Part shown: positions 735 through 60,425 of the stretch, piece after piece
Layout of the letters: each line of letters begins with the position of its first letter
How positions within the stretch are numbered: position 1 is the stretch's first letter
Assembly (NCBI GenBank): GCA_027603945.1
Contig: JADIIU010000002.1
Location: forward strand, 310,001-374,000
Origin: Terramyces sp. JEL0728
Taxonomy: Eukaryota > Chytridiomycota > Chytridiomycetes > Rhizophydiales > Terramycetaceae
Reading direction: 5' to 3'
DNA length: 64,000 nt
The notes under the pieces: model-generated
The model's input: only the letters and a program-made list of their open reading frames with translations
The model's database searches: none
Told to the model about the DNA's origin: nothing
Program-made: the position numbers and the translations under genes

Positions 735-1337
735 ATGGATTATTTAAATTCGTTTTTAAATTGGCTAAAGAGTTTGTTCTTCAAACAAGGTACAATAAGA
801 GTAACAAGAAATGGAATTGACTTTGGTTGGATTGCAGAACAGCGGAAAAACAACACTTGTGAATGTGCTCGCAAACGGACAGTTTACTGAAGACATGATT
901 CCGACTGTCGGATTTAACATGCGGTAATATTTGCTAATGTAGTAAAGTTACCAAGGGCAGTGTCGTGATGAAATTATGGGATTTAGGCGGTCAAGCCAGG
1001 TTTAGAGGAATGTGGGAGCGCTATTGTAGAGGTGCCAATACCTAATATAGGTGTAAATGCTATTGTATATGTTGTCGATGCTGCTGATCATGCGAAATTA
1101 CCTTCAGCAAAGACAGAATTACATTCGTTAATCGAAAGACCGGTTTTACGAGGAATCCCATTGTTGATATTGGGAAACAAGAATGACTTGCCAGAAGCTT
1201 TAAAAGTCGATGATTTGATTGAAACTTTTGGATTGAGATCGATTACAGATAGAGAAGTTTCGTGTTACTCGATCTCTGCTAAAAACTCGAATAATATTGA
1301 TACTGTTTTGAATTGGTTGATGAAACATGCCTCCTAA
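735..1337 (+). CDS. ARL8: ARL8-type Arf-like small GTPase
   Basis: Exons 735-789, 809-923, 943-1031 and 1051-1337 join into a 181-residue protein, the usual ARL8 length. The three introns are each 19 nt. The protein has an amphipathic N-terminal helix ([13 protein letters not shown]), the P-loop GLQNSGKT at about 26-33, switch [13 protein letters not shown], switch II WDLGGQ at about 69-74, the ARL8-typical [18 protein letters not shown], and the guanine motif NKND. In other eukaryotes ARL8 sits on lysosomes or vacuoles and recruits motor adaptors, and the same role is likely here. Without splicing the frame breaks three times, so this gene is a clean demonstration of the short introns. Confidence 0.95.
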
Positions 1338-1413
1338 TTGTTTTTAATATACACAAGTTATCACATTTTAATTTCATCGAAACACTTAATATTCGTTGGT
1401 AGCGGACAATCTT

Positions 1414-4400
1414 ATGATACTGCCAGTGAGTATCAACCACCATCGGCAGTTGTCCGAAATGAAATTAAAAACAAGATCTACAAACTTGACGAAATTCAAA
1501 TTTGATTCAAAGAATGCAATTTCCATCTATTATTCAAACACAAAAGTGCAATTATACAAAAACCAGCACTTGCTGCAAGTCATTAATGCCGACATTGACT
1601 GGATTGCAGTTACTAGATTCGATTCTGAAGATGCAATTGTAATTGCAAACAAGTGCTTTACAATTTACAAACAATCTGATGAAATTCCATTAAATCTACC
1701 GTTTAAAGTGAAAAAAATATTTGGATTGGAGAATGGAGCTTTGTTGGAAACCGATAGTGGGATTCACTGTTTGCTTGGAATATACCACGACTATTTGAAA
1801 CTGGATCTGGAAAGAAATCAGTCTGTTTTGAATGTTTTTAATCTTGAGGCGGATATACTGGTCACTAATATGGACAACAAGGTGGATATTTACGAACTTA
1901 AACAGGTGGATGACTTGGAAAGAACAATTGAACCAAAACTTGAAAAAACTGTGAAAATAAAGTATACGCCAAACAAGTGCGAATACGTAAAGACCAGTGA
2001 TCCAAACTACTGGTTTCAATGCGGTCCTATTTTGGTTTGTTACAATCATAAATGGGAGCTCGTACATGAACTTAATGCCCGCTGTTTATCAATCCAGTCA
2101 ACTCGATTGGAACTGGATTTACTGGTTTACACAAACAAGGAAATTAGAATATGGAACGGCCAGTTTATACCTATCGAACTAGAAAGACAAGAATCGAAAA
2201 AGAGAAAAACAGAGGCAATCGAATCCGAAATTATAGAAATACAGAAATGCTTTACCAATGATGTCATTATTACATTTACAGATTCAAAAGAGCGACTTGA
2301 CTTGGATTTGCAGATCCGAGACTGCCTTGCTCTTGAATGCTTGGCAGCAATGAAGTACTGTCTTCCATTTGACTTGCACTTGTGCTTTAGGAATCAAGTT
2401 CAGGACTGGGAAGGGTTTGTCAATTTATTTTATTCATTATTTGGAATTGAATACAAAAAGACTATTGGCATTAACCTCCCTCCATCTTTAGCCAAATATA
2501 AAAGGAGTGTAGAAATTGCGCAACCAAAGCCCCCCCTGTCGGAAGAGTATGCCAAGTATTTGGATGAAATTCTTGTTTGTTTCCAACTCATTTATCAAGA
2601 TTTAGCTTTAACTATAAATGATAAGCTGAAAACGCAAATGGGAAAGTTTATGTTTCAATTGTTAAACAAACTCAACCATGAATGGAAATTTTTTTATTTC
2701 ATTGAGGGTTATGGACCTATCAATGGCACTATTGAAAGGAGGAGCAAAGTGCAATTTGAAGGCATGTTTGATTGGATCCGCAAAGTGATTAGAAACAAGA
2801 CAGGAAGGGAATCGATCCTGAAAATAATTGCCAAGGGGGATAGAGACATTGGATTTTGTAAAAATATTCAAAAGATTACCAAGCTTTACAATAACCTGCA
2901 CGACAAGAATGCAGTGGAATATGACATTGATCTAAACAAGTTTAATCCTAGTGTCGTGTTTCCAATCAGAAACGAATTGTACAAAGTCAAAAACACATCG
3001 GCAATCCAAGAATATATCCACAACAATGTCGAATGGACTGCAAGTGAATGGGTCGCAATAAAGCCTGCAATCACAAAATTAAGATTCCATAGAGACGATC
3101 GAATTAAACACGTCCAGGAAATACTATTCCCAACTACTGAGCCAAGCTTGGAAGTTCAGATCACCGCAAACATGAGGTATCTATGCTTAACATAGTATTG
3201 AAGATATAAACGCTGTTCAACAAAATGTACTTGCAATCTGGGTGCAAAAAGTATTTGCGTTACCATTTGGCCAAGCTTTATTTAATTATGAATCTGCCAA
3301 TATCGTCCCAGCTCAAGTATTTCCCATCCCAACTATAAATAAGTCTGCAAGATTGAAACCGCTGGGTTCTCTTGTAGAATATGCCATACCACCAAACAGC
3401 GAAATAATGGAATGGCCGGAATTCCATACAGGCGTTGCCAGTGCTTTACAAATTTCCAAAGAATGCGAGGATATCAACAGCTCGTGGATTGTATTTAACC
3501 AAAAAAAGAGTGCGACTGGTCCAGTTATTGATTCAAGTCATGCAGGATTTATTTTTGGACTAGGATTACTTGGGCACTTGAAAAAGTTGGATTCAGCGGA
3601 CTCTCTTCGTAATTATTTCATGCCTCAGTACGAGTTGATTACCGTAGCACATCTACTTGGATTGGCATGTTCGTATATCGGAACAATGAATGAAAAGGTA
3701 TCCCATATGCTCGCTGTCCACTTACCCTCGATGCTGCCTAATCACTCGATCGAATTGCAAACGGGATCTTTGCTAAAAACTGGGGCAATGATTGGTTATG
3801 GGTTGCTGCATCTGGCAAAACCGTCGCAATACAAATATGACAAAATAATGAGTGAAATTGCAAGTATAAAATTTAAAGAGTCGGCTATTGAAAATGCAGG
3901 GAACGATTTATATGTAATTGGATGTGGATTTGCTCTAGGGTTTGTAGGGTTGGGTAAAAGTAAGACAGGGTCAAAACAGGTTCTGTCTAGTCTGGTATCG
4001 CAATTGAAAATCCCTGGAAATCGCAATTTTGCTATTAGCGCATTAGTTGCACTGGGACTGATTTGTTTGAAATCCAACAACGCTTATATTGCCAAACAGA
4101 TGGAAATACCCCAGAGCGAGCATTTATTGGATTTCAAAGAGCCGGAATGCCTCCTTATCCATGCGATCACTAAGAATTTGGTGTTATGGGACTCAATTGA
4201 ACCTTCCAAAGATTGGATCGATGCACAGATCCCTACCTTTATTAGGACCAGAGTACTAAATGAACAAATATTGAACAACAACTCCGAACACTTGTTCCAC
4301 GCCTACTACTCTATATACTCTGGCTTATTATTCGCTATTGGTCTAAAGTACGCTGGTACCTGCAGCAAAAACGCATTTGAGCAAACCACATCTTTTATAA

Positions 4401-5756
4401 CTCGTTTAATTAGCCTCGACAAAAATAGTAACACCGCTTAATGATAGATTTTAAAGGGATTTCTGGGAAATTATTCAAAGTTATTGTTAGGATGTGCATG
4501 AACACTAGTTTAGCCGCTCTTGGTATGATTATGGCAGGATCTGGAAATCTGAATACTTTTGATCTAATTACTAAAGCGAATGAAAAATTTGGGTCTGAAG
4601 CCAATTATGGAACTCATATGGCCTGTCATTTATCGCTTGGAATGCTGTTTATGGGCCAAGGGACTGTTACTCTTGGAAACAGCGATTTGGCAGTCGCAAG
4701 TTTGTTCTGTTCACTCTTTCCAATTTTCCCTACATCTGCAGCAGATAATAGATACCATTTGCAAGCTCTTCGCCATCTCTGGGTATTTTCCATCGAAAAA
4801 CAATGCATCATTCCGCGCGACATTAAGAGTGGAGAAGCCATCTGCGTTCCCCTAGAAATCACTCTACAGTCAGGCAGAAAGTTTAAAACTTTTGCTCCAA
4901 CAATATTGCCATCAATTAAAAATGTACAAAGTGTTGTTGTTCTGGGACCTAGATATAAAAGCGTCAACCTGTCAAAAGATAGTCTGGAGAAACAGTCAAA
5001 TAGACTGGGATATTTGGTCTGGGTGGAGAGAAAAGTCCAATACTTGCCATATATGGATGTAATTCAAGTTAATACTAGGATGTTGATGGACAGCAAAGTA
5101 TGCTTGCTGCTTCTATTCCAAAATCCAACAAATCAAATCACGAATTCCAAACTCGTTTGCAAACAGTGCATGAAAGATTCATAGAATCGTTTTCGTCAGA
5201 TTCTCAAATATTAGCTCTCGTGCAGCACTTTTGCCAGGATAATAACGAGCTGGGAGAGTTTTGCAAAATGGCAGTTTATGATTGTCTATCGAAAGAAAAA
5301 CCAGAAATGATTGAAATCTATTTGTGGCTATATTACTCAATCAAGTTTGTAGACCGGCAAGTCCCTGATTATATTCAGGCAATGACTGTTTCAATCTTTG
5401 TGGATTATATCAAATATAATGAAGGAGTAGATCTAATCAGCGCGGCATTCATGAATTTCATTGATTCTAAAATGAAAGAAACGTGGGATGTATATGAAAA
5501 AGAACAGAATCAAATTATTCGAGATTATTATACCAGAGATGTATTCCAGCATTCGCCATCTGCCATAAGTGGGCTGCATGGGTTCATTGCTTATAACAAT
5601 TGGCCAACGCGTGAGCAGTTTGCAATGATGAAGGAGAAATACGGCAGCCTCGTATCGATTGGAAATCACCAAGCAATAATGATTGCACTTTATAGCCTTG
5701 TTCCTGATATATCGTTTAATAACTTGGAGAAAGTGCTAAAGCTAATAAACGTATGA
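1414..5756 (+). CDS. APC1: Anaphase-promoting complex subunit 1
   Basis: Exons 1414-3176, 3196-4427, 4448-5058 and 5079-5756 give 1427 residues, separated by introns of 19, 20 and 20 nt. The N-terminal third resembles the beta-rich APC1 platform. The C-terminal half holds PC (proteasome/cyclosome) repeats such as GFIFGLGLLGHL, GAMIGYGLLHL, VIGCGFALGFVGLG and LAALGMIMAGSGNL, followed by the APC1 tail (YLPYMDDVDGQQ spans the last junction). APC1 is the largest scaffold of the APC/C ubiquitin ligase that drives mitotic exit. The start is the first in-frame ATG. An in-frame 24-nt GT-AG stretch just after it could be a further intron but lacks the branch motif, so I kept it as coding. Confidence 0.93.
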
Positions 5757-5787
5757 ACTTGTGCTTTCAACAAAGTTTGCAGGCAGA

Positions 5788-6884
5788 TTAACTTGATTTA
5801 TTATATACTTTGATGCTGTAGATTTGGAAATAGGCATTTTGTATGACAGACGGATGGTTTGAGATATACGAAGCACAATCTTGGAAAACACCAGTTTGCG
5901 CAGCAAATACACTGCCCGCCCAAGTTCCACAAAAATCAATATTAATTACAATCGAATGTTGTGCAAAATTTGAATATCTACAATTCTGTCCAAAGGGAAA
6001 ATAAGAGTATGCACCAGAAACTGTTTCCCAGGTGTCTGGTAAAGGTTTCCCATTTACTATATCCATTGGAATGGAATTTCGCGGAAAGAACCATATTTTA
6101 ATATGGCCATCTACGGCTGCAATCCATTCCATGACGTATAAACCGCCTTGGTTGGAATTGAATGCATCCCCAAATGTATTAGGAGCGGTAGCAACAGAAG
6201 TACACCCTGATCTGGATACCAAACGGCTGCAGTCCAATGGATACCCGTTCAAAGTCATTATACAGCGGTCTTGGGTATGTAGCGTTGATGTATTATTCCC
6301 AAAGCCATTTGTACCTTCAAGGATATCTTGATTAAACTCGAAATACCAATTTCACCATTGGCAGGCCAATTCGGACCGACTGTCCAGATTGCTGGCCAGC
6401 TCCCAAATCCAGTTGGAATATGCAAAATGTCAAATATGAATAATCCTCCAGTAAAGGTTTGGTTTGAATAAATCCGAATACTTTTTGGAGGTGATCCGCT
6501 CTTGGCACCTATTTGAATGTAGTCCTTAACTTGATTTCCCACCTGTATCATATTCGAACTAATTGCAGTGGTTTGATCAACGTAATTTACATATCCCCTG
6601 GTAGGATCAGCACTAGTAAAAAAGTTCCAATCGCTTCCGTTAAGAAAGTTCTGTGGAGTACTGTAAAGTGTCAAATTCCAAGGCGATACGGTATCATTAG
6701 TTCCGACCGATACTTGGTGTGTGGGTTTGGCTTTTGGATGAATATTAGTTCCGCTAGAACTTGCGCTAGAGTTGCTTGGAACGGTAGCTATTTCCCTTGC
6801 GGCTACTATTGCAACAACAACAATGACCAGTACAGCCAATCCCGAAACGAACAGCCTTGATCTGTACTTTTGTGCAAACCCCAT
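5788..6884 (-). CDS. GH16 beta-1,3(4)-glucanase-like, membrane-anchored (copy a)
   Basis: Exons (minus strand) 6347-6884 and 5788-6326 give 358 residues with one 20-nt intron. The N-terminus is a signal anchor (hydrophobic run at about 12-29), followed by a Ser/Asn linker and a GH16 domain of the fungal Lam16A laminarinase type. The catalytic motif E-I-D-I-L-E falls at about 178-183 and is interrupted by the intron between I and D. FTGGLFIFD, FGSWPAIWTVG and GGLYVMEW are further family landmarks. Such enzymes cut or remodel beta-1,3/1,4-glucans. The anchor suggests action at the cell surface or in the secretory lumen on the fungus's own wall, which is inference. First of three tandem copies. 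Confidence 0.88.
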
Positions 6885-6907
6885 GCAAGAATGCCGGTCA
6901 TGGCGGT

Positions 6908-6915
6908 ATTTATAG
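6908..6915 (-). promoter_or_regulatory. TATA box of GH16 copy a
   Basis: TATAAATA on the minus strand lies 23 bp upstream of the ATG at 6884, in a short AT-rich stretch. No start-site data; assigned by position. Confidence 0.5.
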
Positions 6916-7081
6916 GACTATTGGAATAGCCTCTTGATATTAAATTTAATTCATTTGCTCCAGAAATTGGACACAGTGCACGAAATTAATTATTGATATT
7001 AAAAATAGAAATAGCCTGCAAATCAATGGAAAATTAAGCACAAATAATCGATTATCAATCTCTAGAATATTTGAGGGTTTA

Positions 7082-8121
7082 TTAGATGGGAGCAAAATAC
7101 TTTACTGATGAAATTTCAAAGTAAGCATTTCTGAAAGCACTGCTGTTCTTGGCTATATAATCAGTACAGCTATCACTTGTCCACCATGAGCACTGGCTGT
7201 TGAACAGATTCCCAGCCCATCCACCGCAAAATGCCAAGTTTATGATAATCTGGTGATCACTGAACTTTGAAGAATCGCAGGCAGGACCGAATGGAAAGTA
7301 CACGTATGTTTGATTGGTGGGCCAGCTAGGCGGATCCGGTTTATCATTTGCAATGTCTATTGGTATGGCATTTCTTTGAAAATACCATACCCGAATACCC
7401 CCATCATTTGATGGTTGCCATTCCATAGCATAGACACCACCACCGTTGTCGTTGAACGTGTCTCCATAAGCTACGGTTGAATTCATACTTGATTCACAGC
7501 CAGAATTTGGAGAGCTGCAATCAGTGAAATTACCAGGTATGTTCATGGTGCATCCAGAACCAGAATGTAAACTAACGGTATTGTTTCCATGGCCGTTGAT
7601 GCCTTCCATTATATCTATTTCTCCTTGGTTTGGCCACTATATTAAGAACAATTTACATTTGGCCCAACCGTCCAAAAACTTGGCCATGTACCACAACCTG
7701 CGGGTATGTGTGTACTGTCTATCAAAACTAATCCTCCGGTAAAAGATTGGCTGGTGTATATTCTAACGCTGTTTGGCGGCCCATTAGTTTGCTGAGCACC
7801 AATATATAACGAATTGTTGTTTAGTTTGTAAAGCCCCTCCTGTATCGCATGAGACTTGTTCACATAATTCATGAATCCCTTGTCCAACGAAGATGGTCCT
7901 TCAGTCTCGAACACCCAGTCGTTTCCGTTAAACATTGCATCGGCATTCCAGTTCTTATCAAGCGTGTATGTTCGATAATGATATTTGGAATGTGATAAAA
8001 ACAATACAAGGGCTATTACGCCAGTTAATGAGAATGCGGATATTATGAATATCCAGATACAATTTTTTCTATTAACAACCGGCATTTTCATTAAAAAAAT
8101 ATGCTTGCGCCTTTGGTTCAT
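7082..8121 (-). CDS. GH16 beta-1,3(4)-glucanase-like, membrane-anchored (copy b)
   Basis: Exons 7657-8121 and 7082-7636 give 339 residues with one 20-nt intron. A basic N-terminus (MNQRRKH) precedes a strong transmembrane run at about 23-43, as in a type II membrane protein. The GH16 catalytic motif E-I-D-I-M-E is at about 161-166, just after the intron. NSVRIYTSQSFTGG, GTWPSFWTVG and GGVYAMEW match copies a, c and d. The intron lies directly before the conserved Trp-Pro, a position shared with copies c and d but not a. Expected role: surface glucan hydrolysis or remodelling. Confidence 0.88.
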
Positions 8122-8148
8122 CTCTTTGGCCGCAAAACGGTCAACAGC

Positions 8149-9191
8149 TTATGAAAGGACATAGTATCTAATTGAGCTCAAGTGAAAGAAAATGTCATTG
8201 AAAGCGGAAGAGTTGGTTCCCAAGTAAGTTCTACAGTCAGTTGAAAGGTATGGGGCGTGTTTCTGAAAGTAGTCCTCAGACCACTTTCCACAGAAGGCCA
8301 AATTCACAATAATTATGTGGTCATTAAAGTTTGAAGAGTCGCAATTAGATCCAAAGTTGAATTCCGCATACGCATCTGGAATTGGCCAATTTGAAGGGAC
8401 AACAGTGTCCGCTCCGAAATCTGAGGGGAGGGATCCTCTTGGAAAGAACCAGACCTTGATCCATCCGTTGGGTTCCGCTACCCACTCCATTGCATAGATT
8501 CCTCCTTGGTTTTTGTTGAATGAATCTCCAAATGTCAAATTGGCATTAGTCCTGTCCGCACACCCGCTCCCTGGTGCAGAGCAATCTGTCAATTTACCGG
8601 ATATTGGTAACAAGCAGGACGATGACGAGTGTATACTGATAGTGTCATTGCCAAACCCATTTACCCCTTCCAAGATGTCTACAGTTAAATAATGAACAAC
8701 CTATTTCCCCATTGTTTGGCCACTATATTAAATCTAACCTACCTTTGGTCCAACACTCCAAAACGAAGGCCATGTTCCTGGACCGGTGGGCATTCTAGTG
8801 CTGGGTTAAGTTATTGCAACCTGTCAAATATCCACAGACCGCCATTGTAAGGAGCAGCAGTTTTAATCTTTACACTCTTGGGAGGACCATTTTCAACTTG
8901 CTTGGCACCAATGTACAATTGGTTATCAACGATTTTGTAAATTCCAAGGTTGACTGCCTCTTGTTTTGCCACGTAATTAACATATCCTTTATCGCTATCA
9001 AAATACTTTGGTTCAAATATCCAATCCTGCCCGTTGAGAATTGCATTTGCATCCCAACTTTTTGAAATTGTGTAATTTGTTGTCTGTCTGGGAGGGTGAT
9101 GAGTCAGCAGAGCAAATCCAGCTATTGCTCCAATTGCAATCAGCGTAGCCAGTGCTATCCATAGGCATACTCTTTTGAATGGTATTTGCAT
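8149..9191 (-). CDS. GH16 beta-1,3(4)-glucanase-like, membrane-anchored (copy c)
   Basis: Four exons, 8821-9191, 8743-8800, 8701-8722 and 8149-8678, give 326 residues. The third exon is only 22 nt. It encodes W-P-N-N-G-E-I and half of the catalytic motif E-I-D-I-L-E (about 149-154). The introns are 20, 20 and 22 nt. An N-terminal signal anchor (about 11-27) precedes the GH16 domain with the same landmarks as its neighbours. This copy holds all three intron positions seen across the family, so it probably keeps the ancestral structure. Confidence 0.88.
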
Positions 9192-9525
9192 TTCAATTGG
9201 AGAAAAATGTTCGGCACTTCAAATGTTGCCAAATTTCCGGTAGCACAACTGATAGTGATTGGAATCTAATAAACTCAACAGTAATTGAGACAGGGCTGCT
9301 CGACAAAAGAGTTCTCTCTTGATCAAACGAGTTTGAAAAGTTACACAAGTAGAATCAAACCATCTCACATTCCTGATTCAACTCGCTACCAATAAAGCAA
9401 AAATGTATTCTCCTTGCTCAAGAATCGTACACCGGTCGTCAACAACTCATAAAAATCATTTATTCCTTGCAAATAGCTTCTCCTCTCTTTACTCCAGCCA
9501 GTCTGAATGAAAACTACATTTAACA
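9192..9525. other. Intergenic, upstream of GH16 copy c
   Basis: This stretch lies 5' of GH16 copy c and 3' of the NDUFB4-like gene. I see no open frame, repeat or RNA gene in it. Confidence 0.5.
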
Positions 9526-9717
9526 TTAATTTACATTATATTTGCTGTTGATGTAATAGATGAGTCCTGGGAATGCAACGACTGCAACACCAACCAAGCG
9601 TACAACTTTGCTGGTGAATTTGAAGTTAACATGAGTGTTTTCTCGCATATGATACCATTTTTCTATCGCTGGATCCACTAGTAATGGTGGGTATTTTCCA
9701 TGTCCATGTCCTCCCAT
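9526..9717 (-). CDS. Complex I NDUFB4/B15-like accessory subunit
   Basis: A single exon of 63 residues starting MGGHGHGKY. It contains [20 protein letters not shown], close to the signature of fungal and animal NDUFB4 (B15) subunits, followed by one transmembrane helix ([15 protein letters not shown]). The protein would sit in the membrane arm of mitochondrial NADH:ubiquinone oxidoreductase. Its size fits the short fungal forms. The frame is open further upstream, but the conserved Gly/His-rich start and the divergent CBC2 gene 37 bp away favour this ATG. Confidence 0.75.
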
Positions 9718-9754: not shown

Positions 9755-10409
9755 ATGTCAGGCATCGTCCCAACTCTTGGCCAACCATCCACATACAGGG
9801 ACAAGAAATATCCAGCAGGTCTAGAACAGTTGGAAGTAGATTTGAAAAACTCGTCTACACTGTACGTAGGAAATCTGTCATTTTACAGCACCGAAGAGCA
9901 AATTTACGAACTATTTTCAAAGACTGGTGAGATCAAGAGGATTATTATGGGGCTGGACAGGCATAAAAAGACTCCTTGTGGATTTTGTTTTGTAGAATAT
10001 TATAATATTGACGATTGTCTGGATGCACAAAAGTATTTGAATGGAACAAAGCTGGATGAGAGAGTGATTAGGACAGATATCGATCCTGGGTTCCAACAAG
10101 GAAGACAGTTTGGCAGAGGAAAGAATGGCGGGCAAGTAAGAGACGAACACAGAGTGGATTATGATGAAGGTTGCTGATATTAATTCTAGGCAGAGGCGGA
10201 TGGGGAGCCAGGATAAAAGAGCAAGAAGCAAGAGAGCAAACTCAAAGAGATGTTTATGATGGATCTTTAGCTGTACCTGAAGGATCTCAAAACTTGTACA
10301 CTAAGGGCTATTACAAGAGTAAGTTTTCTTAATGCTAGGTGGTAAAAGAGGAAGAGACGACGATGACTATGAGCGAAACCAGCGATTCAGATCAAGATCG
10401 CCTGAATAA
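9755..10409 (+). CDS. CBC2: Nuclear cap-binding complex subunit 2
   Basis: Exons 9755-10169, 10190-10318 and 10339-10409 give 204 residues with two 20-nt introns. The single RRM carries RNP2 LYVGNLSF and RNP1 CGFCFVEYY, with the family-specific [24 protein letters not shown]. The spliced C-terminus continues with [13 protein letters not shown] and ends in an Arg/Asp tail ([20 protein letters not shown]). The protein binds the m7G cap together with CBC1 and promotes splicing and export. The junctions recreate the expected cap-binding tail (VDYDEGRGG), which supports both introns. Divergent from the NDUFB4-like gene with 37 bp between start codons. Confidence 0.95.
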
Positions 10410-10427: not shown

Positions 10428-12608
<2,181 letters not shown>

Positions 12609-15094: not shown

Positions 15095-18000
15095 TTAATT
15101 ATCTAGCGACATGGAGGCGTGTTTGCCTATTTTCGATCCTTTCTTTGCTCGAGATTTGCTCACACCTCTTCCACCAGTTGCTCTTGCTCGACCCCTGCCG
15201 CGACCTCTCCCACGTCCTCTAGATGAACCACCATCTTGGGGGCAGTTATTAGAAAAATGCCCAGGATCGCCGCATTTGTAGCAGCTTCCTGAGCTTTCCC
15301 CGCCATTATTGTTGCAATTAGAGGCAAAATGTCCAGACTGTCCACATTTAAAACAGCTGCCATTAGAACTAGTTTTGGTATTAGGTTCTCCATCTAGCCA
15401 TTCAAAGAAATCGCATTTTGCACCGGCTTTTGGGCAAGTGTAAAACTCTCGCCCGTTGTTTGGACCTTCTTTGAATACCTTTTTCGTAACAGCAACTAAT
15501 TCACATCTGCATCGCAGCCTTGCTTCTCCATCAGAAATGTTTTGCTCTTGATACCTCCTAGCAGTTGTGCTCTGTGTCATATCATTCCTGGGCGGATCTC
15601 CAAACCACTCGAAAAAGTCACAGCCTTCACCTTTAGGTTTGGAACAGCAATAAAACTGTTTACCACAGTTTGGCCCGTCTTTTCTTACAGTTCTTAGTGA
15701 AGATGGTACACCACAAGAGCAATTACGTGTATTTTCTAGAGGTTCATCCGACCAAGCAAAGAAATTGCATTTAGATGAATCAGATTGCGATTTGGAGCAC
15801 GCAAAGAATTCTCGACCAAAATTAGCACCTTCTTTACGGACTTGTTTGACCACCACAGGCAGCTGACACGGACATTGCGCATTCGAGCTATTTTCAGGAT
15901 TGAATCGTTCAGTATTCGATAAATCTTGGTTATTGGTTTGAAACTCCAGCCGACCAAACGATGAATCGGTTCTTACAGGTGCTTCTCTCTACTATTAAAT
16001 ATTCTTACTTCTCTTTGCGGTCTAGAATAGCCTCCGGTAAACAGCTCACTAATACTCTGATCACACCATAAACAAACTAAAGCCTATAATCAACATGGAA
16101 TTACTGGAGATTCAATGCCTCCAGGGATAGCATTACGAGGAAACTCGAGCATTACTTTGTGAACAGGCAAGTCTGGCCGACTGCAACTACCACACTTGCT
16201 TTGGTGAACAGTAATTTCAGTTACAAATGTAGGTACCCACACGCATTCTTTACAAGTTGGAAACCCAGTGCAACCAACCATCTTTCTGGGTTCATTAGGC
16301 TTGATTTTGCGCAAATTCATTGGCTTCTTGCATAAAATGCAATGGCGAACAAATTCTCCCATATCACGTTCCGGCTGCTGTTCGTTGATTGGCACAGGCT
16401 GCATATATTTCCCGATTTGATTGACTAGGACATCCATTTGATCGAATGCATGCTGGTACGCACCGCGATACATTTGAACGACTTCTTGTATAACCTGCTC
16501 TTTGGTTTTAGTGCCAGTGATTATGCAATTCATGTTGCTCTCCATTTGAGCTCGCAAATCTGGCTTTGAAAGTGACAAATCAATTCCCATTTCATCATAT
16601 CCACAAACTAGTGCCATGCCTAGTGTTGTGGGATAGAAATACTCTCCTTCCTTATTAACATATTCTCTCTCCAATATTTTCTTGATATGCTCGTGTATAG
16701 TTGCATCTGTTCCAATTCCCGATTTATCCATTATGCCAATCAAGTCTGCTTCCGTGAGCATATTTGGCTTGCTTGTTGATCCTGCCACCAAATTAAGCGC
16801 AGAAGGCTGTATTCTTTCTCCTTCAATCAAAGGCGGTACTTGCGTATCAGACCACTTATCGTATGGGTATACTTGAAGGTAATTCATTTCCGAAATAAGT
16901 AATCCTGTTGATACAAAGATTTCATCTGCAACTGACACATTAATTACTGTTTCTTGTCCTTTGGCATTTTCAGAACAACAAGCCAAAAACCGTCTAGTGA
17001 CAAATTCAAAGACTTTTCTCCTCTCTCCCTCCAGATTGAATGCAGCCCTAACTGGATGAATAGGTGGATGCGCTTGATCATTGTTTTTCCCTTTTCTTGG
17101 TCTCTTGAACTTTCCATCCAGCAACCTGATATAAACAATTTAATACCCCTGTGCATATTCTCCCCAAGTAGGATCTTGGGATTGTTTTTGGATTAATCCT
17201 TTTAAATCAAATGTGTCTGTAAACACATCAGTTTCTGTGCGGGGATAGCTAATAATACCTTCATTATACAATTGTTCGGCAATCTATATAAAATCCTGTT
17301 TACATGCATAATTTTATCAGAACTCATCTTCAGGTATCTCGATCCCATCTTTTGCATTTCTACAGTAGTTAGAGGTAGAGGAGTCCTGCATTACTATTTC
17401 AGTACCATTTCTCTTTGGGTTTAGATGTAACTTTGGTAACAATTGCTGAGGGATTCTCAATGCAAGTTTCAAATAGTACTGCAGTTGAAAAATAATCAAA
17501 CAGCTGCACTCTGCTCCAATTGAATTTGCTCTCAATACCACCTTTACCAATCGACAGCTCAATCTTCCAAAAAGGCTCTTCCTTGAAATTCTTTGCTTTT
17601 AGAAACCGTTCAACAACAAACCCAAGTGTTGGGAACTGACACGGTCCATACGAAAGTACTTTTTGTTCTTTCAGTTCTCTAAACTTTTGTTTTAAATTAC
17701 ACGTTTGAAATCTAGTAAACACGGCTCCTTCGATTAGTTGTAATTACCAATACGCAGGTCTAGTTCTATACGTGCATCCACAGCAATTGCTGCCTTCATA
17801 TCCAGCTCAATCATGGAATTCCACGCTTGCATTATATCCCGTTTTTGTACAACTGAAAACTTTGCTCTCTTTACAATAATTCTGGGGTTTACAGATCGAC
17901 ATATTTCCACTACTTCAGCACCGATATTTTCCCCTTCCCTGGATTAAGACCTATTACCGATCGCAATCTGTCCATATGGATAATATATCAGTGTTCCTTG

Positions 18001-22906: not shown

Positions 22907-22907
22907 A

Positions 22908-28926: not shown

Positions 28927-29327
28927 ACATTTTTTCAGATTGAATATTAATAAACAAATGTTATATACTTTAGAGATATTGGTTATTACAACAAAGAACT
29001 CCTTGTAATTGGAGAAACACGGCAAATCACTAGGTTTTACATGCTCTATCTGTGCAGAGTGCTTTATCTGTATTTGAGCCATTGACGACGGACCGTGCGT
29101 TCCTGTAGTTGTCATTTGACTTTGGAAAGCCTATTTGCTTTGTCATAGTAATAGAAGCTGCGGGAATAATAGAGACATGCTTCAAACAAATCAAATGGCC
29201 TTGATGTCCTTTTATCCATTAACTAACATCCTCAAGTCAATGTCAACCAGTGCCCGATGATTTTGTGCAACCAGACGAATCAGGCAAAGGCAAATCAGTA
29301 GGCTTTCTATTCCGCCAAAATAAAACT
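28927..29327. other. Intergenic region between paired 7TM genes
   Basis: About 400 bp with the polyadenylation-like AATAAA of the first 7TM gene just downstream of its stop. A minus-strand frame (28900-29115, 71 codons from an ATG) has a polar start (MTTTGTHGPSSMAQIQIK) but no recognisable family. The segment just before 29328 is open in the frame of the next gene, so that gene may start in an earlier exon. Confidence 0.35.
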
Positions 29328-33899: not shown

Positions 33900-33955
33900 A
33901 ATAAAATTCAATTATTGTATTAAATAGCTATTCTATTTTCCTTCATATACTATAA

Positions 33956-35700: not shown

Positions 35701-35809
35701 CTATGTGTTAGTGGGTTCTTGCCATCTTTGCGAACGCGATTAACTTTTACAGCTCGCGTAAAAGCAAATATGCTGGCAAAATAGTAGAATAGATAAGCTT
35801 TTTCAACTA

Positions 35810-45958: not shown

Positions 45959-46551
45959 ATGTTGAATGTGGGACTAAAACTATTCAAACCTACATTTTCC
46001 CAAATTAGAACAGCAGTGGCAAACTACAGACCAAAGAAACTAAAAAACAAAAAAGCATTCAAAGGGATATTTCGCAGTCCCCAAAATTCAATCAAATCAA
46101 CAACTGTATATTTTGGTGACTATGGATTACAAGCCATTGAAGGAGGAAGATTAAGTGACAAGCAGATGGATGTTGTCCGTCAAGCGCTAAAAAGGTTTTT
46201 GAAACAAGAAAAGACTGCTTCTTTGATAATGCGGGTGTTTCCAGACAGACCAGTTACTGCCAAGCCATTAGAGGTGCGTATGGGGAAAGGAAAGGGTATT
46301 TGAGTGTTTATATAGGTCCTGTTGACTATTTTGCACAGTGGATTGCAGAAGGAAGGGTGTTGTTTGAAGTTAAAGGTGCTAGACCAGAACTGGCCGAGAA
46401 AGCTCTGGATATCGCAAAGCAATTCTTGCCAATCAGGACTAGAATCATCAAGAAAGATGAGATGCGAATGGCGCCTAGAGTGCTGCCTTCATTCATCTTG
46501 AACAGGTTAAAGGAAAATGAATATCAACAGAAAATCAAAGAGTTGCAATAA
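45959..46551 (+). CDS. MRPL16: Mitochondrial ribosomal protein bL16m
   Basis: Exons 45959-46295 and 46316-46551 with a 20-nt intron give 190 residues. A basic leader precedes the L16 core: YRPKKLKNKKAFKGIF, GDYGLQAIEGGRLSDKQMD, RVFPDRPVTAKPLEVRMGKGKG and, after the intron, PVDYFAQWIAEGRVLFEVKG. The junction lies inside the universally conserved MGKGKGPVDYF. It is a large-subunit protein near the A-site tRNA elbow of the mitochondrial ribosome. Confidence 0.95.
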
Positions 46552-47324: not shown

Positions 47325-48607
47325 ATGAAATCAGAATCAAAAGAGTATGAGAAAAAGAGACTCGCGGCGAAATTTGGAATATTATTCACCGCAAAAGCAC
47401 TCTTTTCTATTTACAAAAAGAAATTCGCACCGGTAGATGCCCTAGTATTCGCTTCGACATTAACTGGATTTTCCTACTTTTCAAAATCAAAAAACAAGCT
47501 AATTGTGGCCTTGTCGTCCTTGCTGTTGAATCTATTATCAACCCCAGTTCGCGAAACCATAAATTCACTTGTGTTTGTCAGGGCAATTCATTACTTGTAC
47601 AGATCTATTGTCTACAAACGTAAGCTTGCAATCAAATCTACAAAAAAGGATGATCTGCTGGTATTAAGAAAGAACAATAGAATTACCCGGTTTATTGATA
47701 AATATGGAGAGTTTATGGTCTGGATTTACATTTCAATGCACATCAACTATGCACTATTTCTGTACCCACACTATATGCCGCACTCGTTCGTTAAATCTAT
47801 TTACTACACTTCAGGACACATGATTAAATTGGGAAAAGAGTACGGAAAAGTAATGGAAGGAATGACGAGCCTGGCACTTTCATTTTCAAATAACGACAAA
47901 CAAGAAATATTCAAAGTGAACGGGAAAACCCTTGAATTCATGACCAAGCATCAGAATATTGTACCTGCTTTCAAGGAATTGGCTCCAAGTGTTCCGCCGC
48001 ATATCCATCACGATTATTTGCTTTGTGCTTTCTTTCATCCTCAGCATTCTTCATGTTTTGCGGCTAGTTTATCTCAAGGATACTTGGTTTTCAAAACCAT
48101 TGCTAAAACTTACTTTTTACTGAATTTGGTACGTTGGGATTAACAATAGCCTGGTGTTGCGATTAGAATTTCCAAACAAATCAAAAATAAGCGACACGAG
48201 TATGCTACCACCTTGAAGCGATTTGTACTTTCTTCTTTGCGGTCTACCCTAATGGTATCCACCTATATTGGATCGATTGAATTGTTTATTTGCATGTTCC
48301 GCCGTTTGTTCCAGAAAGAACACAAATTATCGTAATTTGTTATTAACTCAGATACGCATTTGCCAGTGCTTTTGCAACACCGGCTATATGGTTAGACAAA
48401 CCAGGTAGGCTGTTAGAATTAAACACCTACTGTACCAGTGTTTGTTTAAAGAGTTATGTAAAAATACTGCGCGATATGGGATTCTGGAATCAGGGGATCG
48501 AGAGTATTATTATGATGCCTGCGTATGTGATTCTTGTGGATTGTGTTAGAAAAGAATATCCCGCTGTTGGCCTCATGAAGCCTGTGTTTAACTGGTTCTT
48601 TGAATAA
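47325..48607 (+). CDS. TMEM135-like membrane protein (paralogue 1)
   Basis: Exons 47325-48128, 48150-48331 and 48352-48607, introns 21 and 20 nt, 413 residues. It matches the TMEM135/PMP52 layout: an N-terminal basic helix region (AAKFGILFTAKALFSIYKKK), LVFVRAIHYLYRSIVYK, GEFMVWIYISMHINYALFLY, the Cys-His-Pro motif CAFFHPQHSSC, and the C-terminal WLDKPGRLLELNTYC. TMEM135 relates to Tim17-family membrane proteins and acts in peroxisomal/mitochondrial lipid handling in animals. Shorter in its N-terminal region than paralogues 2-4. Confidence 0.8.
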
Positions 48608-48765: not shown

Positions 48766-50165
48766 ATGCAAAAACTGTGTTTGCAGACAATAATCAAATT
48801 TGTCAACAGGTTTGGAATTTACTATGCACTGAAAACAGTACTCTCGTTAATCCGACTACTGCGCAAATCGAAAAAGATAAACAGAAACGTACTATTAAAT
48901 ATCCCAAATATCAGATTTGCAATTTCATTAGCCGGAATGTCCAGTTTTTATCATTTGATTGCGGAATTATACCAAGGCAAGTACAAGTACATTGTTGCTG
49001 GTGGATTATCTTCATTATGGATGGTTGTCGATCGCGATAGAAAACAGACTGGGAATATATCACAAGTTATTTTTATCAGGACACTCTATTTCATGATTAG
49101 AGCATTTGTTTACGATAAACCAAAGGAGGAAATCAAGCATGAGGATGAACATAAACCGGCATTACAGCTGAGAAAATCAGAGGACAAACTGACTAGTAGA
49201 CTGCGCAGATATATAGATGAGAATGGTGATTACACTATTTGGATGGTTGGAGCTTTTCATATTTGCTATTGCGCATTCGTGTATCCGGAATTCTTGACCA
49301 AACCATACTTGTCATCACTTGTTTACATAACTGGAGGGTACTCCAGGTACGGGGATAATGCGATTTATTTGATTGAAAAGCTATCAAAATTAATCAGATT
49401 TTCGTCAAAGAATCCTCTTGCAATACCATTGAATCATAAACAGACTTCCAAAGCATATGTAAATGATTTAATGAGTGTTTTCAAGGAAAAAGGGTTTGAT
49501 GAGCATTTGGAGGCGTTGGGAGGTATTGCTGCTAGCTGCACTAATGCCAAACACGAACGACTATTTTGTGCAATGCAACATCCCACTCAACAAAGCTGCA
49601 TACTAGCAGGCTTTGAACGCGGAGTGGATGTCTACAAGAAACTGATCAAAACATATCTAATACTAAATACAACCACGTTTTTGTTCAAGCTGTTCAATTC
49701 GATAAAGAAAAAGAAAGAGCACAACAAGACTCACATGTTTATTCATTCTATGGCTACAGCAATGCGATCGTGTCTGTTTATAGCGGCGTATATTGGACTG
49801 TTTTCTCATTCTATCTGTCTATTACGCCGAGTTTATGGTAAAGAAAGTCCTTTAATGTAATTGATGTTAATGCAGGTGGGGAATAGCTGGCATAATGTGC
49901 ACTCCAACGATTTACATTGATAAACCTGGCAGGCTGACTGAATTCAATACATTCTGCATGACCAAATGCTTGGAATCGCTTGTACTATACCTAGAGAGTT
50001 TGGGGCTCAATTATTCAAAGTAAGTTGTTGCTAACTAGGACTGTTGAATTGCTTGTAATGATGCCCACGTTTGGGTTGTTGACGCACTTGCTAGAGGTGT
50101 ATCCATACTCTGCAAACGGGTTCATCGTCCCACTGCTCAGATGGTTTTATGATATAAAGAAATAG
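48766..50165 (+). CDS. TMEM135-like membrane protein (paralogue 2)
   Basis: Exons 48766-49856, 49876-50019 and 50039-50165, both introns 19 nt, 453 residues. Conserved blocks: NRFGIYYALKTVLSLIRLL, GLSSLWMVVDRDRKQTGNIS, IRTLYFMIRAFVYDK, GDYTIWMVGAFHICYCAFVY, CAMQHPTQQSC and YIDKPGRLTEFNTFC. Several hydrophobic helices are spread along the chain. Best matched by paralogue 4, next to paralogue 1 on the same strand. Likely an organelle membrane protein; substrate unknown. Confidence 0.83.
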
Positions 50166-50328: not shown

Positions 50329-52587
<2,259 letters not shown>

Positions 52588-52645
52588 AAATAGTATTTCC
52601 ACATTTAGCCTTATCTCTTGTAAATTTTTGTCTCGTGACAAGTTT

Positions 52646-54105
52646 ATGAATCTAGCAACAAAAACTACAGAAATATTTTCAAAGCGATTTGCACTGTTAT
52701 ATAGTCTAAAAACCCTCCTATCATTAGTCGGTTTTATAAAGAACAGAAGGGGGAAATTCAGCTCTGCGATTTTTAACATTTCCAATGCACAGTTTGCAAT
52801 TTCAATATCAGGAGTATCCAGCTTCTACCCGCTGCTCTTGCATTTATTTAGAAAACTAGGAATCAGTAGTGATTATTGTCCTGGATTAGCCGGTGCAGTT
52901 TCGTCGTTATGGCTGCTGGCTGACAGGGACGATAAAAGGAGTCGAACGATTAGCAGTCTTGTATTTGTTCGGACTCTGTATTTCTTGATTAGGGCCGTAG
53001 TTTATGTTGAACCAACAGACAAGCAACATGAAGGTGATTCTGCAGAAAACTCGTCCGATAAACTGCCAACTGAAGCTGAAAGGCAAGCTACACAGCTACA
53101 TGATCACCAAACCAAGGTAAGGATAGTGGGAAACCAGTTTTTGCAATCCATTGTAAATACAGTCCATTACTCTGGCCACTGGATGATTTGGATTGCAAAT
53201 TCAGTCCATGCGTGTACACTTCAATATCCCTACCCTGAACTGATGGAAGTAATGCAAATTAACCGTAGAATGGTTACTATAACACAATCTTGAAATTGAT
53301 GGCGGTTTCAGACCGATATGGCCGTAATTATGAGCCGGTAGTTGCCAAAGTATCCCAGACCACCAAATACTATATTCAAAATGGAATTGATCAGTGTATA
53401 CCTGCTGGAACTACTTCATTAGAATACTTGAATAGTTTGAATACTCCAGAGATTGGAAAAGCTGTAGAAATGTTTAAAGGGCTTGTAGATCCTTCTGCTG
53501 TCCACAGTAGACTATGTTGTGTCTTGCATCATCCGCAGGAAGGTAACTGTTACAAAAGCGCTTTCGTTATCGGTAACAGAATCTAATCCAGCGTGGAATA
53601 TATCCAGATCAATGGCAAAAACTTATTTCTTGTACAACCTTGCGTCAACCATCATGTCGCTTTACAGAAACAGAAAAAATATCCCGCACAAAGTGTATAG
53701 ATTGGCAATTGACACTGTCAAAATGTGCTTGATGATATCCGTGTTTGTTGGGCTGTTCAACCTTTCTTCGTGCCAATTCAGGAGATTATTTAGAAAAGAG
53801 CACTTGTGGTTTCACTTTTTAGGTGGGCTATGTGCTACTCCAGCTATCTTACTTGACAAACCCGGCCGCATGGTTGAAATGAACGCTTACTGTTTTGTGA
53901 AAGTATTTGACACTCTAATACTCTATTTCCAGCAAAGGGGGTTCAAGTACACGAGGTAGCATGCCTTAATTGTAGGTTGTTTGAGACCTTGGTGATGATT
54001 CCGACTGTTTTTACTTTGACAACGATCATGGCTGGCCATAAACATGCCATGAGAGGGTTTGTTGTTCCGCCATTGAAAATGATTTTCCATGAAGAAAAGT
54101 ATTAG
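52646..54105 (+). CDS. TMEM135-like membrane protein (paralogue 3)
   Basis: Exons 52646-53248, 53269-53572, 53592-53955 and 53976-54105, introns 20, 19 and 20 nt, 466 residues. Blocks: FSKRFALLYSLKTLLSLVGF, AVSSLWLLADRDDKRSRTIS, VRTLYFLIRAVVYVE, CVLHHPQEGNC and LLDKPGRMVEMNAYC. It begins 58 bp after the CDC5 stop. An extra segment at about 125-165 (EGDSAENSSDKLPTEAERQA) is absent from paralogue 1. It has one intron more than the other copies, before NGYYNTILK. Confidence 0.82.
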
Positions 54106-54302: not shown

Positions 54303-55746
54303 TTACCGCTTGGACTTTATATTAAATATCCAACCAAACACACCAGTCATATATCCGTTCATTGCATGTGAATATTCTTCCATAATGGTGGTGAGGATAC
54401 CAAACGTTGGAATCATCACTGCCATTTCAACAGATCTATGATTACAAATTATTTACTTGCTATAGCTCAGGATGTTGTGGTGGTGCAGGAACAAGACAAA
54501 TGATTCGAATGTCTTGGTTGCACTAAAGGTATTCATTTCTAGTAATCTACCTGGTTTATCAATAAGAATCGAAGGGGTGGCCATTACCCCAGCAATCCCC
54601 CAGCTCAACAGATATTCTCTGCCAAATAACTTTCTTAGTGTGCACAAAGATAGCGAAAATCCTCCAACAAATCCAGCAACCATCAAACACGATCTAACAG
54701 TGCTAATGATTGCGTGGTTGATGATTGAAGTAACAGTCTTTTTCGTAGTCTTCTTTTTGTATTTACTGTAAGCCAAAGTTCCAAACGATACTGATAAACT
54801 AGCAAGATTTAAAAATATGTAGATCTTGATTAGCCTTCTTACGACATCGCGACCTAAATGAGCATTATTTACAAGTATGCAAGGCCGCCATTGTACAGCT
54901 GGCTGTTTCTGGATGCTGCATGGCGCAAATAAACTTTTGGTGATGGACATTTTGGGCTAGTGCTCCTTTGATTGCACTAACGCTCTTCAAAAACGCATCC
55001 CCCTCTTCATTTTTAGGCAACCCTTTTCCAAATTCATTCAAGAACTCTATTGTAGTTTTTCCTGCAGGAATATCTGGTAGTTTTCCCGGGTGTCTTGTTC
55101 CATATTTGATAATATTGCTCATTCCTTTGATAATATTTGCTGCATCTGGCCCAAACCGTTCGTACGATCCTGTGATGTAAACCAAAGATTTAAAATACGA
55201 TTTTGAAAGATATTCTGAATAATTAAAGGCTGCAAAGCAAATATGGAATGCTGACGATGCCCATACAATATGATCCCCGTGCAGATGAACTAGTTGTTTG
55301 AATTTGTTTACAATGCCATATTTTGATTTTCGGAGCTCCAATTCCTTGTGGTGAGATTCAGCTTCATTAGGGTCCGCATTGGCTTTTGGAATTTCTTGCA
55401 GTCCAGTTTCTTTTACTCCTTTATATACCCACGCTCTAATTACATAGTAGACTGTTCTCATAAACACAATTTGCGATATAGTTGCCGTTCGTTTATCGTC
55501 ATTATCTGCAACCAACCACAAAGCAGACAGACATCCAGCGATAAAGTGTTTGCTTTTGTGTGTGGAGAATACTTGAACAAGAGCTGGATACAGTGAAAAT
55601 CCAGCCAAGGTGGTTGCAAATCTTGAACTTGAGGAATCCAGCAATCGAAGCCCAGTTTTGCGATTGCGTACAAATGATATTAGGATTTTGATAGTGTAGA
55701 ATATTCCAAACCTCTGCACAAAGAGTTTCAGCAGATTCCTTTGCAT
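54303..55746 (-). CDS. TMEM135-like membrane protein (paralogue 4)
   Basis: Exons 54873-55746, 54457-54853 and 54303-54435, introns 19 and 21 nt, 467 residues. Blocks: VQRFGIFYTIKILISFVRN, CLSALWLVADNDDKRTATIS, GDHIVWASSAFHICFAAFNY, YLSKSYFKSLVYITGSYERF, CAMQHPETASC and LIDKPGRLLEMNTF. It is the only copy on the minus strand, convergent with paralogue 3. The last intron sits after SK in the same place as in paralogue 2. Confidence 0.83.
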
Positions 55747-59536: not shown

Positions 59537-59572
59537 TCAAAATTTTCAGAGAATTTGAAAAATAAGTGTATA

Positions 59573-60425
59573 TTAATTTGTATCCAAGTTGAGAGACTGC
59601 CGGCTCTTATGTGCAGTCTCCATCGCTCTTGTTTCCTGGTTTATTTTGATTGAATTGTTATTCGGATTCGTATAATCCACAACAAATGTGTTCTGGACAT
59701 ACAACGCAAATGTCCCTATTCCATTCCCTACAGTTAATTTAAATTACCCGCAGCAGCAGATATACTAAAAATATACCCCGATGGAAAGACCGCTACAGTA
59801 ATAACAAACAGCAACTCCAATACGAAACATGTAACGAATGTCAATCCATCCTAAAGTAAGATTAATGTACCTTGAGCAGGAATTGCCGCGTAATATCTGC
59901 GATTGGCGACTTTGCGACGGTAATCCAGTACAAGATCCCAAGATTAATCAAGTTGTATGAAATCAGAATAACCTTTTCTACTATCAAATTCAAGAGTGGA
60001 AATCCAGTGGCACAGACCAAATTCGCACCTTCTATATCATAATAAAAGCAAAGGTTGGCAATTAGGGATCCAGCCCGAATGACGTAGGAGCATATCGATG
60101 CGTATTGCAACTTTGGATGGTATCGACAAAGCACTTTGATTTTGTAGACCTGATAGGAATCCAAGCATACCTGGCTTGCATATGAAAATATATAGAGAGT
60201 TAAAGACCTTCCTTTACAATCAACTGGTGCTGCCAAATCAAAAGACATGGAGATTACCTGGACCATCATCAAACAAACGGCAGATATCGTGCAAAAGATA
60301 CTCGCGCGGACCCCTTTCTTTGAATATACAAAGACAGAGTCAAGGAATACCGTTCCGCCAAAGCCAAACCCCATTGCGCGAAGGATGTTTGCTAGTATAT
60401 TGGCAAGCGTGTAGTTGATAGTCAT
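59573..60425 (-). CDS. Orphan seven-transmembrane protein
   Basis: Exons 59871-60425, 59749-59850 and 59573-59728, two 20-nt introns, 270 residues from the ATG at 60425. About seven hydrophobic helices are seen, including MGFGFGGTVFLDSVFVY, ASIFCTISAVCLMMVQVI, LTLYIFSYASQVCLDSYQVY and, after the first intron, LTFVTCFVLELLFVITVAVF. The last exons add VQNTFVVDYTNPNNNS and a polar tail. The topology suggests a sensory receptor; no diagnostic motif. It sits between F-box/LRR genes. Without splicing the seventh helix would be lost. Confidence 0.65.

Follow-up and report, generated by a model that had tools for sequence, protein, structure and literature searches.

Evidence for ultra-short spliceosomal introns of 19-22 nucleotides in the nuclear genome of a chytrid fungus

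Ultra-short introns in a chytrid genome

The protein-coding genes in a 64,000-nucleotide (nt) stretch of genomic DNA (hereafter the window; contig C2:310001-374000) are interrupted by short segments which, judging from their sequence, are almost certainly U2-type spliceosomal introns, nearly all of them 19-22 nt long. A first-pass annotation of the window had proposed a fungal nuclear genome with introns confined to about this range, and the proposal is supported by motif counts, by a gene finder and by alignments to homologous proteins, as described below.

The assembly holding the window comprises 15,016,339 bases in 231 contigs. The closest homologue of the TOP3A protein encoded in the window comes from Globomyces pollinis-pini (67%), followed by those of other chytrids, and the IFT56 protein shares 96% identity, along its entire length, with that of Boothiomyces sp. 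JEL0838 (Terramycetaceae, Rhizophydiales). Because of these best homologues, the window is assigned to the nuclear genome of a Rhizophydiales chytrid close to Boothiomyces. IFT56 is an intraflagellar-transport protein, and the genome carries flagellar genes. The sample used for gene modelling amounted to 264 kilobases (kb), i.e. the window and 200 kb of another contig (C1:1-200000, referred to as C1 in the counts that follow).

Intron signal counted without gene models

The pattern GTA...YTAAY...AG was counted on both strands, and the expected numbers were derived from an order-2 Markov sequence. In C1 the pattern occurs 58, 75, 34, 18 and 19 times at lengths of 19, 20, 21, 22 and 23 nt, versus expectations of 9.1, 9.1, 8.1, 9.8 and 6.1, respectively. 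The window alone yields 15, 15 and 11 cases at 19, 20 and 21 nt, the highest count elsewhere being 9 (at 67 nt), and up to 70 nt there is no second length peak.

When the cases from the window and C1 (both strands) are mapped by the position of the branch A and by the number of nucleotides that follow it (the tail), the signal is found in four cells, which combine a branch A at position 14 or 15 with a tail of 5 or 6 nt. These cells hold 52, 43, 35 and 31 cases, whereas an average background cell has 1.63, and the cells adjoining this block reach 11 (15,4) and 10 (16,6). The 5' spacing and the tail length are independent of each other in the map (p = 0.83), while the same test on the gene-finder set described below gives p = 0.10. 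Sites in which YTAAY is followed by AG number 231 for a tail of 5 nt and 215 for a tail of 6 nt, versus a mean of 129.7 for tails of 9-29 nt. About three quarters of this excess has a GTA 13-16 nt upstream of the branch, and GTA donors located 17-599 nt before the branch show no excess (ratios 0.82-1.03). A chance origin of the segments is rejected both by the excess of the pattern over the Markov expectation and by the four-cell spacing map.

Gene models of the 264-kb sample

Genes were modelled with a Viterbi finder based on codon usage, for which 70 long open reading frames (ORFs) served as the training set. Under a heavy intron penalty the finder called one intron in the window and 18 of scattered length in C1, and this setting was replaced. 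With a flat length prior (12-300 nt) and with GT and AG as the sole requirement, 55 of 141 introns measured 19-22 nt. When learnt splice-site weights were combined with the flat prior, this was the case for 140 of 203 introns (142 at 17-23 nt), the remainder comprising two calls of 23 nt, two of 14 nt, one of 35 nt and a scatter of longer ones, which is weighed further below. With learnt lengths, the finder called 270 introns in 134 genes of the 264 kb, and 264 of them were 18-24 nt long: 58, 129, 57, 16, 3 and 1 at 19, 20, 21, 22, 23 and 24 nt, respectively. Where lengths of 12-300 nt and GC-AG ends were permitted in addition, 4 of 271 calls exceeded 40 nt (1 of 41 in the window, 3 of 230 in C1), and C1 contained two GC-AG calls. 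Introns interrupt 97 of 133 modelled genes; per kb of coding sequence there are 1.68 of them in C1, compared with 0.96 in the window.

A call of 248 nt in the SF1 gene (locus L042, contig C39) was followed individually. It resolved into a 21-nt GC-AG intron starting with GCAAGT and a 20-nt GT-AG intron; the long call arose because the finder, then limited to GT-AG, skipped the GC-AG intron together with the next one.

Restricted to 17-24 nt, the finder produced a raw window list of 54 introns (17, 26 and 11 of 19, 20 and 21 nt). Fifty of them start with GTA, in agreement with the usual start noted previously, and 40 (74%) carry TAAT or TAAC within the last 12 nt, which makes the former figure of four fifths roughly right; TNAY is present in 49. 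After motif-based corrections the list again comprises 54 introns, with 15, 27, 11 and 1 at 19, 20, 21 and 22 nt. This is similar to the 57 introns originally reconstructed (20, 27, 9 and 1). Two calls were discarded in this process: that at 20264-20282, which sits within an uninterrupted ORF of 319 amino acids and is probably false, and a 19-nt call at 8679-8697, replaced by the 22-nt intron 8679-8700, which restores the motif GEI/DILEG (the slash marks the junction, here and below).

Retention of a 21-nt intron would introduce an in-frame stop in 54 of the 57 introns of this length in the window and C1, versus 37.8 expected for random phase. This excess probably reflects a detection bias, and it was not used as evidence because the gene finder cannot see 21-nt introns that are read through.

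Alignment to homologous proteins

For the alignment of homologous-protein profiles to the genomic DNA, introns could have any length from 10 nt upwards and any end dinucleotides. The profiles were built from 28 IFT56 homologues, with the 96% identical Boothiomyces relative excluded, and from 29 TOP3A homologues (604 profile positions). In this rule-free alignment the internal inserts measured 19, 20, 20, 20, 19 and 21 nt in IFT56 and 19, 20, 20, 20 and 21 nt in TOP3A, and requiring GT or GC plus AG gave the identical 11 lengths. In a control, the six IFT56 introns were swapped for random letters of 28-200 nt in three trials, and 18 of 18 lengths were recovered exactly. For these two genes, therefore, the earlier statement that no longer intron is required holds in a free alignment. 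At the start of IFT56 the unrestricted alignment contained an extra insert of 22 nt (35701-35722, GC...ACTAAC...AG), which was set aside as an end effect and may represent one more intron, at the start codon.

Another seven junctions are located within Pfam domains of the L16, MYST, symporter, dehydrogenase and monooxygenase genes, and the junctions previously cited as restoring conserved motifs could be located: NMR/KVTKG at 924-942, GEI/DILEG at 8679-8700, CRC/YIMNKK at 34310-34329 and MGKGKG/PVDYF at 46296-46315. Prp8, spliced with five introns of 19-22 nt, matches human Prp8 in one stretch over residues 6-1781 (junction residues were inspected around the first two junctions). None of TOP3A, IFT56 and Prp8 (as far as residue 1781) requires a longer intron. 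Widely mixed intron lengths are rejected by the pattern counts, the flat-prior finder, the homology alignments and the GTA-donor distances, and assembly indels are rejected in view of the fixed motifs, the constant branch position and the same lengths in conserved genes.

Introns of the window

The 54 introns of the corrected list are given below with their strand, length and evidence. The gene names ARL8-like, CBP20-like, RCC1-like and CDC5/Cef1-like are presumed. "Alignment" denotes the spliced alignment to homologues (28 for IFT56; 29 for TOP3A, with and without the splice-site rule), and "collinear" refers to the Boothiomyces protein.

924-942 (+), 19 nt, ARL8-like GTPase gene (NMR/KVTKG); gene finder, motif by eye
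1032-1050 (+), 19 nt, ARL8-like gene; gene finder
3177-3195 (+), 19 nt, APC1-like gene; gene finder, APC1 Pfam domains in the spliced protein
4428-4447 (+), 20 nt, APC1-like gene; gene finder
5059-5078 (+), 20 nt, APC1-like gene; gene finder
6327-6346 (-), 20 nt, GEI/DILEG gene; missed by the finder, restores GEIDILEG
7637-7656 (-), 20 nt, paralogue with GEIDIMEG (GPN/WPNQGEI); gene finder, no Pfam match at 1e-5
8679-8700 (-), 22 nt, third paralogue (GEI/DILEG); restores GEIDILEG, finder chose 8679-8697
8723-8742 (-), 20 nt, third GEIDILEG paralogue; gene finder
8801-8820 (-), 20 nt, third GEIDILEG paralogue, GTT start; gene finder
9514-9534 (-), 21 nt, small gene; gene finder only
10170-10189 (+), 20 nt, CBP20-like RRM gene; gene finder, RRM by Pfam
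10319-10338 (+), 20 nt, CBP20-like RRM gene; gene finder
10697-10715 (-), 19 nt, MYST acetyltransferase gene; junction inside MOZ_SAS domain
11434-11453 (-), 20 nt, MYST gene; gene finder
12363-12381 (-), 19 nt, MYST gene; gene finder
12498-12517 (-), 20 nt, MYST gene; finder at 17-24 nt, the run to 300 nt placed a 299-nt jump
15989-16008 (-), 20 nt, 3' part of TOP3A gene; gene finder
16084-16104 (-), 21 nt, TOP3A gene; gene finder
17126-17146 (-), 21 nt, TOP3A gene; alignment
17284-17303 (-), 20 nt, TOP3A gene; alignment
17386-17405 (-), 20 nt, TOP3A gene; alignment
17728-17747 (-), 20 nt, TOP3A gene; alignment
17939-17957 (-), 19 nt, TOP3A gene; alignment
23657-23676 (-), 20 nt, short-chain dehydrogenase gene; junction inside adh_short / adh_short_C2 domains
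25454-25474 (+), 21 nt, flavin monooxygenase gene; junction inside FMO-like domain
27060-27078 (+), 19 nt; gene finder
28740-28760 (+), 21 nt, membrane-protein gene; gene finder only
30140-30160 (+), 21 nt, paralogue of the membrane-protein gene at 28740; gene finder only
33537-33555 (+), 19 nt, RCC1-like repeat gene; gene finder
33950-33970 (-), 21 nt, IFT56 gene; alignment, collinear
34184-34202 (-), 19 nt, IFT56 gene; alignment, collinear
34310-34329 (-), 20 nt, IFT56 gene (CRC/YIMNKK); alignment, Boothiomyces model six residues short here
34850-34869 (-), 20 nt, IFT56 gene; alignment, collinear
35428-35447 (-), 20 nt, IFT56 gene; alignment, collinear
35541-35559 (-), 19 nt, IFT56 gene; alignment, collinear
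40064-40083 (-), 20 nt; gene finder only
40142-40161 (-), 20 nt; gene finder only
40917-40935 (+), 19 nt, sulphate symporter gene; junction inside Na_sulph_symp domain
41023-41043 (+), 21 nt, sulphate symporter gene; junction inside Na_sulph_symp domain
41696-41715 (+), 20 nt, sulphate symporter gene; junction inside Na_sulph_symp domain
46296-46315 (+), 20 nt, ribosomal protein L16 gene (MGKGKG/PVDYF); junction inside Ribosomal_L16 domain
48129-48149 (+), 21 nt; gene finder
48332-48351 (+), 20 nt; gene finder
49857-49875 (+), 19 nt; gene finder
50020-50038 (+), 19 nt; gene finder
51219-51239 (+), 21 nt, CDC5/Cef1-like splicing-factor gene; gene finder
53249-53268 (+), 20 nt; gene finder only
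53573-53591 (+), 19 nt; gene finder only
53956-53975 (+), 20 nt; gene finder only
54436-54456 (-), 21 nt; gene finder
54854-54872 (-), 19 nt; gene finder
59728-59747 (-), 20 nt; gene finder only, low score
59851-59870 (-), 20 nt; gene finder only, low score

Several other features of the window were noted. Three adjacent paralogues sharing GEIDI[LM]EG, which we take to be glycosidase-16-like, occupy positions 5800-9200, and for one of them the spliced protein matches nothing in Pfam at 1e-5. Two neighbouring paralogues with the appearance of multi-pass membrane proteins are located at 27856-30143. Between 42240 and 63958 there is a run of large genes, several of them in tandem and long without interruption, presumably of LRR and F-box-like families. 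By eye, a unit of ~35 bases is present in three near-identical tandem copies at ~430-550.

Intron architecture and genome-wide extent

The introns share one layout: a GTA start, a T-rich stretch upstream of the branch (T 37-60% at positions 5-9 of 20-nt introns), a branch motif that is mostly YTAAY, and a tail of 5-6 nt, in most cases with TAG or CAG at its end, so that the gap between the branch A and the AG is 3-4 nt only. Among the 264 introns of the gene-finder set the commonest start is GTAATT (38), and GTAAGT occurs in 9. A branch-like motif was found in 225 of them (NTAAY in 189 and YTGAY in 36); the branch A occupies position 14 in 96 introns, 15 in 85 and 16 in 16, and the tail measures 5 or 6 nt in 183. 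Branch position is better judged from the model-free map, since the finder may be biased towards a fixed branch by its 3' weights. Two independent one-base choices (position 14 or 15, tail of 5 or 6 nt) lead to lengths of 19, 20 and 21 nt near a ratio of 1:2:1, which fits the numbers of both the trained finder (58/129/57, p = 0.67) and the flat-prior run (25/67/36, p = 0.34).

Outside C1:1-200000 and the window, a core intron was present in 28 of 28 loci, situated in 19 of 19 places (17 other contigs plus distant parts of C1 and C2). These loci, which are no random sample because they had been chosen by other searches, contain 64 distinct core introns versus 5, 7 and 2 in three control sets of cells. 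The 264 introns in 264 kb (~1 per kb) extrapolate to an estimated ~15,000 introns per genome.

Splicing machinery

The first-pass annotation had also inferred a modified step in the recognition of the branch site or 3' splice site. The parts of the machinery that were found lend this no support. The U2 small nuclear RNA (snRNA) is of full length (140 bits) and keeps GUGUAGUAUCUGUUCUU, which is canonical, and its branch-recognition sequence GUGUAGUA (GUAGUA) is intact. SF1 is present, and its KH-QUA2 part aligns with structures of SF1 and the branchpoint-bridging protein. U2AF65, read through its introns, scores 252 bits over family positions 68-471 (the cut-off for the whole protein is 310), U2AF35 is represented by four exon matches, Slu7 by two matches and Prp8 by one match of 774 bits, with most of the protein found. 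The SF1, U2AF65, Slu7 and Prp8 genes, where modelled, themselves carry introns of 19-22 nt. By sequence, the parts found (U2, SF1, U2AF65, U2AF35, Slu7 and most of Prp8) look ordinary, and, within the small set of proteins searched, the presence of these five speaks rather against a strongly reduced spliceosome of the mikrocytid type.

Some candidates for further components were examined. Four exact matches to a U1 5'-end pattern were rejected as unlike U1. Two nearly identical loci, L030 and L031 (contigs C199 and C111), match U6 weakly (27 bits) and are probably not U6, as the U6 core is not kept. A second U6 pattern gave five candidate matches, each with two mismatches. A search of the genome with the RED_N profile returned no candidate, nor did it match in any control genome.

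Comparison with known systems

Ultra-short introns form a known kind of system; new here are the fungal nuclear genome, the density and the clear design with two spacings. The comparisons below are based on excerpts of the cited accounts. Introns of Stentor coeruleus are 15-16 nt long; their branch A occupies position 10-11 and is followed by a 5-nt tail. They resemble those described here in being GT-AG, AU-rich and narrow in length with a 5-nt tail, and also in the canonical U2 and the largely conserved core spliceosome. Stentor differs in its weak branch consensus and in that 18% of its genes have introns, whereas in the present case, a fungus, the branch motif is a clear YTAAY and 97 of 133 genes are interrupted; the loop between the 5' splice site and the branch is 4-5 nt longer than in Stentor (PMC9505925). 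The Bigelowiella nucleomorph likewise has introns of 18-21 nt, many for the size of the genome, but it is the relic nucleus of an endosymbiont with somewhat more than 800 introns, compared with a 15-Mb fungal nuclear genome here (PMC10245619, PMC5014332). Mikrocytos mackini also carries extremely short, uniform introns (16-17 nt), but there are 224 of them, served by a strongly reduced spliceosome in which 17-19 proteins were found, whereas the chytrid has many introns and SF1, U2AF, Slu7 and Prp8 were found (PMC10245619).

Paramecium is similarly intron-rich with ultra-short introns only; in contrast to the chytrid, its mode is 25 nt and introns of 3n length are under stop-codon selection (PMC5014332). 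In the model-free count presented here the 21-nt cell is not depleted (31 versus 30.3 expected from the margins). Type B introns of Trichomonas (23-25 nt) share a branch site fixed near the 3' end, but only 24 such introns exist in an intron-poor genome that has a second, long class (PMC12316389). Yarrowia lipolytica and several other yeasts show a constant short distance from branch to AG with no polypyrimidine tract in it; their introns are comparatively long, and a fixed spacing is described for the 3' side alone, whereas here the 5' spacing is fixed too (PMC2483917). The excerpt of Lim et al. (PMC8476143) describes fungal intron lengths without such a case. Our literature search turned up no fungal intron system this short, which is not proof of absence, as most subscription journals lie outside its coverage.

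Possible mechanism

We suggest that the introns are removed through intron definition, the major spliceosome being otherwise ordinary, and that they have probably shrunk to about the smallest size at which two pairing sites can stand side by side. The first ~6 nt (+1 to +6) would pair with U1 and then with U6, and ~7 nt around the branch A (about five before it and one after it) would pair with U2, which would leave a gap of 2-3 nt between the two helices. A normal U2AF tract could hardly be accommodated between the branch and the AG, because only 3-4 nt are available there; either the T-rich stretch upstream would be read instead, or the AG used would be the first one after the branch.

In the human B complex ~52 nt are estimated to be needed between the 5' splice site and the branch site, with extended U6 and U2 helices, and RED and Smu1 are essential when this distance is short (Keiper et al., PMC6692369, in the portion cited). 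Here the spacing is 13-14 nt, hence both helices would be short or the order of assembly different. There would be no room for both of the extended helices (U6 and U2) that the human B complex forms, and assembly or activation would therefore be altered. The constraint seems to lie in the spacing from the 5' splice site to the branch rather than in recognition of the branch or the 3' site. It is conceivable, although we consider it rather doubtful, that a fungal lineage independently evolved a near-linkerless spliceosome with two fixed-spacing rulers, ordinary U2, SF1 and U2AF, and no RED.

Alternative explanations

Several results weigh against the reading of the segments as U2-type introns of nearly uniform length, or against details of the proposed mechanism. 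A strong branch motif is absent in 39 of 264 introns, and the branch sites themselves were called from the motif. The model-free lengths (52/78/31) fit the 1:2:1 ratio less well (p = 0.06), the shorter choice being commoner on both sides, and the ratio should be regarded as approximate. An Rfam search of the genome for U1 snRNA produced no match (the control genomes were silent too), and for U6 the Rfam-type matches were only the two weak ones at L030 and L031, below the cut-off. The steric argument is built on the human B-complex model (PMC6692369, as cited above). Finally, the flat-prior run keeps 58 calls scattered over 41-300 nt, and the C1 pattern count tops the Markov expectation at some lengths of 40-70 nt (16 versus 6.3 at 62 nt). 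Together with a 52-nt call where the Prp8 stretch breaks off on its 3' side, and with possible introns in non-coding leaders, these calls leave some room for a minor class of longer introns, or even for an ordinary one beside which the tiny introns would be a large class. We consider an ordinary class improbable: the long calls are scattered and drop to 4 of 271 with learnt length weights (which themselves disfavour them), the single one followed, in SF1, proved to be two tiny introns, GTA donors show no excess at the larger distances, and none was needed in the three genes aligned.

Segments skipped in translation by ribosomal bypassing, or eliminated from the DNA in a ciliate-like manner, might also appear as short, uniform inserts in coding frames. 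Given the GT-AG ends, the branch motif complementary to U2 and its fixed position, the GC-AG intron of SF1 with its GCAAGT start, and the presence of a canonical U2 snRNA and of splicing factors, we find either process scarcely credible. It also seems very unlikely that the introns are recent copies of one 20-nt mobile introner instead of old, shrunken introns. Their size is very uniform, and among 8256 pairs of 20-nt introns 22 reach a similarity of 85% or more, versus 7 expected; however, all 129 of 129 such introns are distinct, pairwise they are on average just as alike (identity 0.535) as column-shuffled introns (0.535), and the similar pairs may stem from duplicated genes. Splicing of uniformly tiny U2-type introns remains our preferred explanation.

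Consequences for annotation and for the study of splicing

In the public Boothiomyces model of IFT56, six conserved residues (HLCRC region) are missing at the intron 34310-34329, the other five junctions being collinear. It looks as though an annotation program had settled on a longer intron: use of a donor 18 nt upstream would create a 38-nt intron and give exactly the shortened Boothiomyces protein. Since the model of this relative loses residues at a tiny intron, other gene models of the clade may be wrong as well. For Rhizophydium megarrhizum, a member of the Rhizophydiales with a similar assembly size, the cited part of the report on one assembly gives BUSCO values of 76.9% for the genome and 40.5% for the proteins (PMC13391722). 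Unmodelled tiny introns could be one cause of this gap.

So far, ultra-short introns have been described from ciliates, from a nucleomorph and from rhizarian parasites, which are hard systems for splicing biochemistry. With a fungal case, the lower size limit of spliceosomal introns would come within reach of the best-studied spliceosomes, and it makes testable how a spliceosome forms on a branch A only 13-14 nt from the 5' splice site, compared with ~52 nt in the human B complex. If a near-linkerless spliceosome did evolve in this lineage, its order or geometry of assembly would lie outside the known A and B complexes, e.g. through hand-over of the 5' splice site to U6 before, or instead of, joint binding of U1 and U2.

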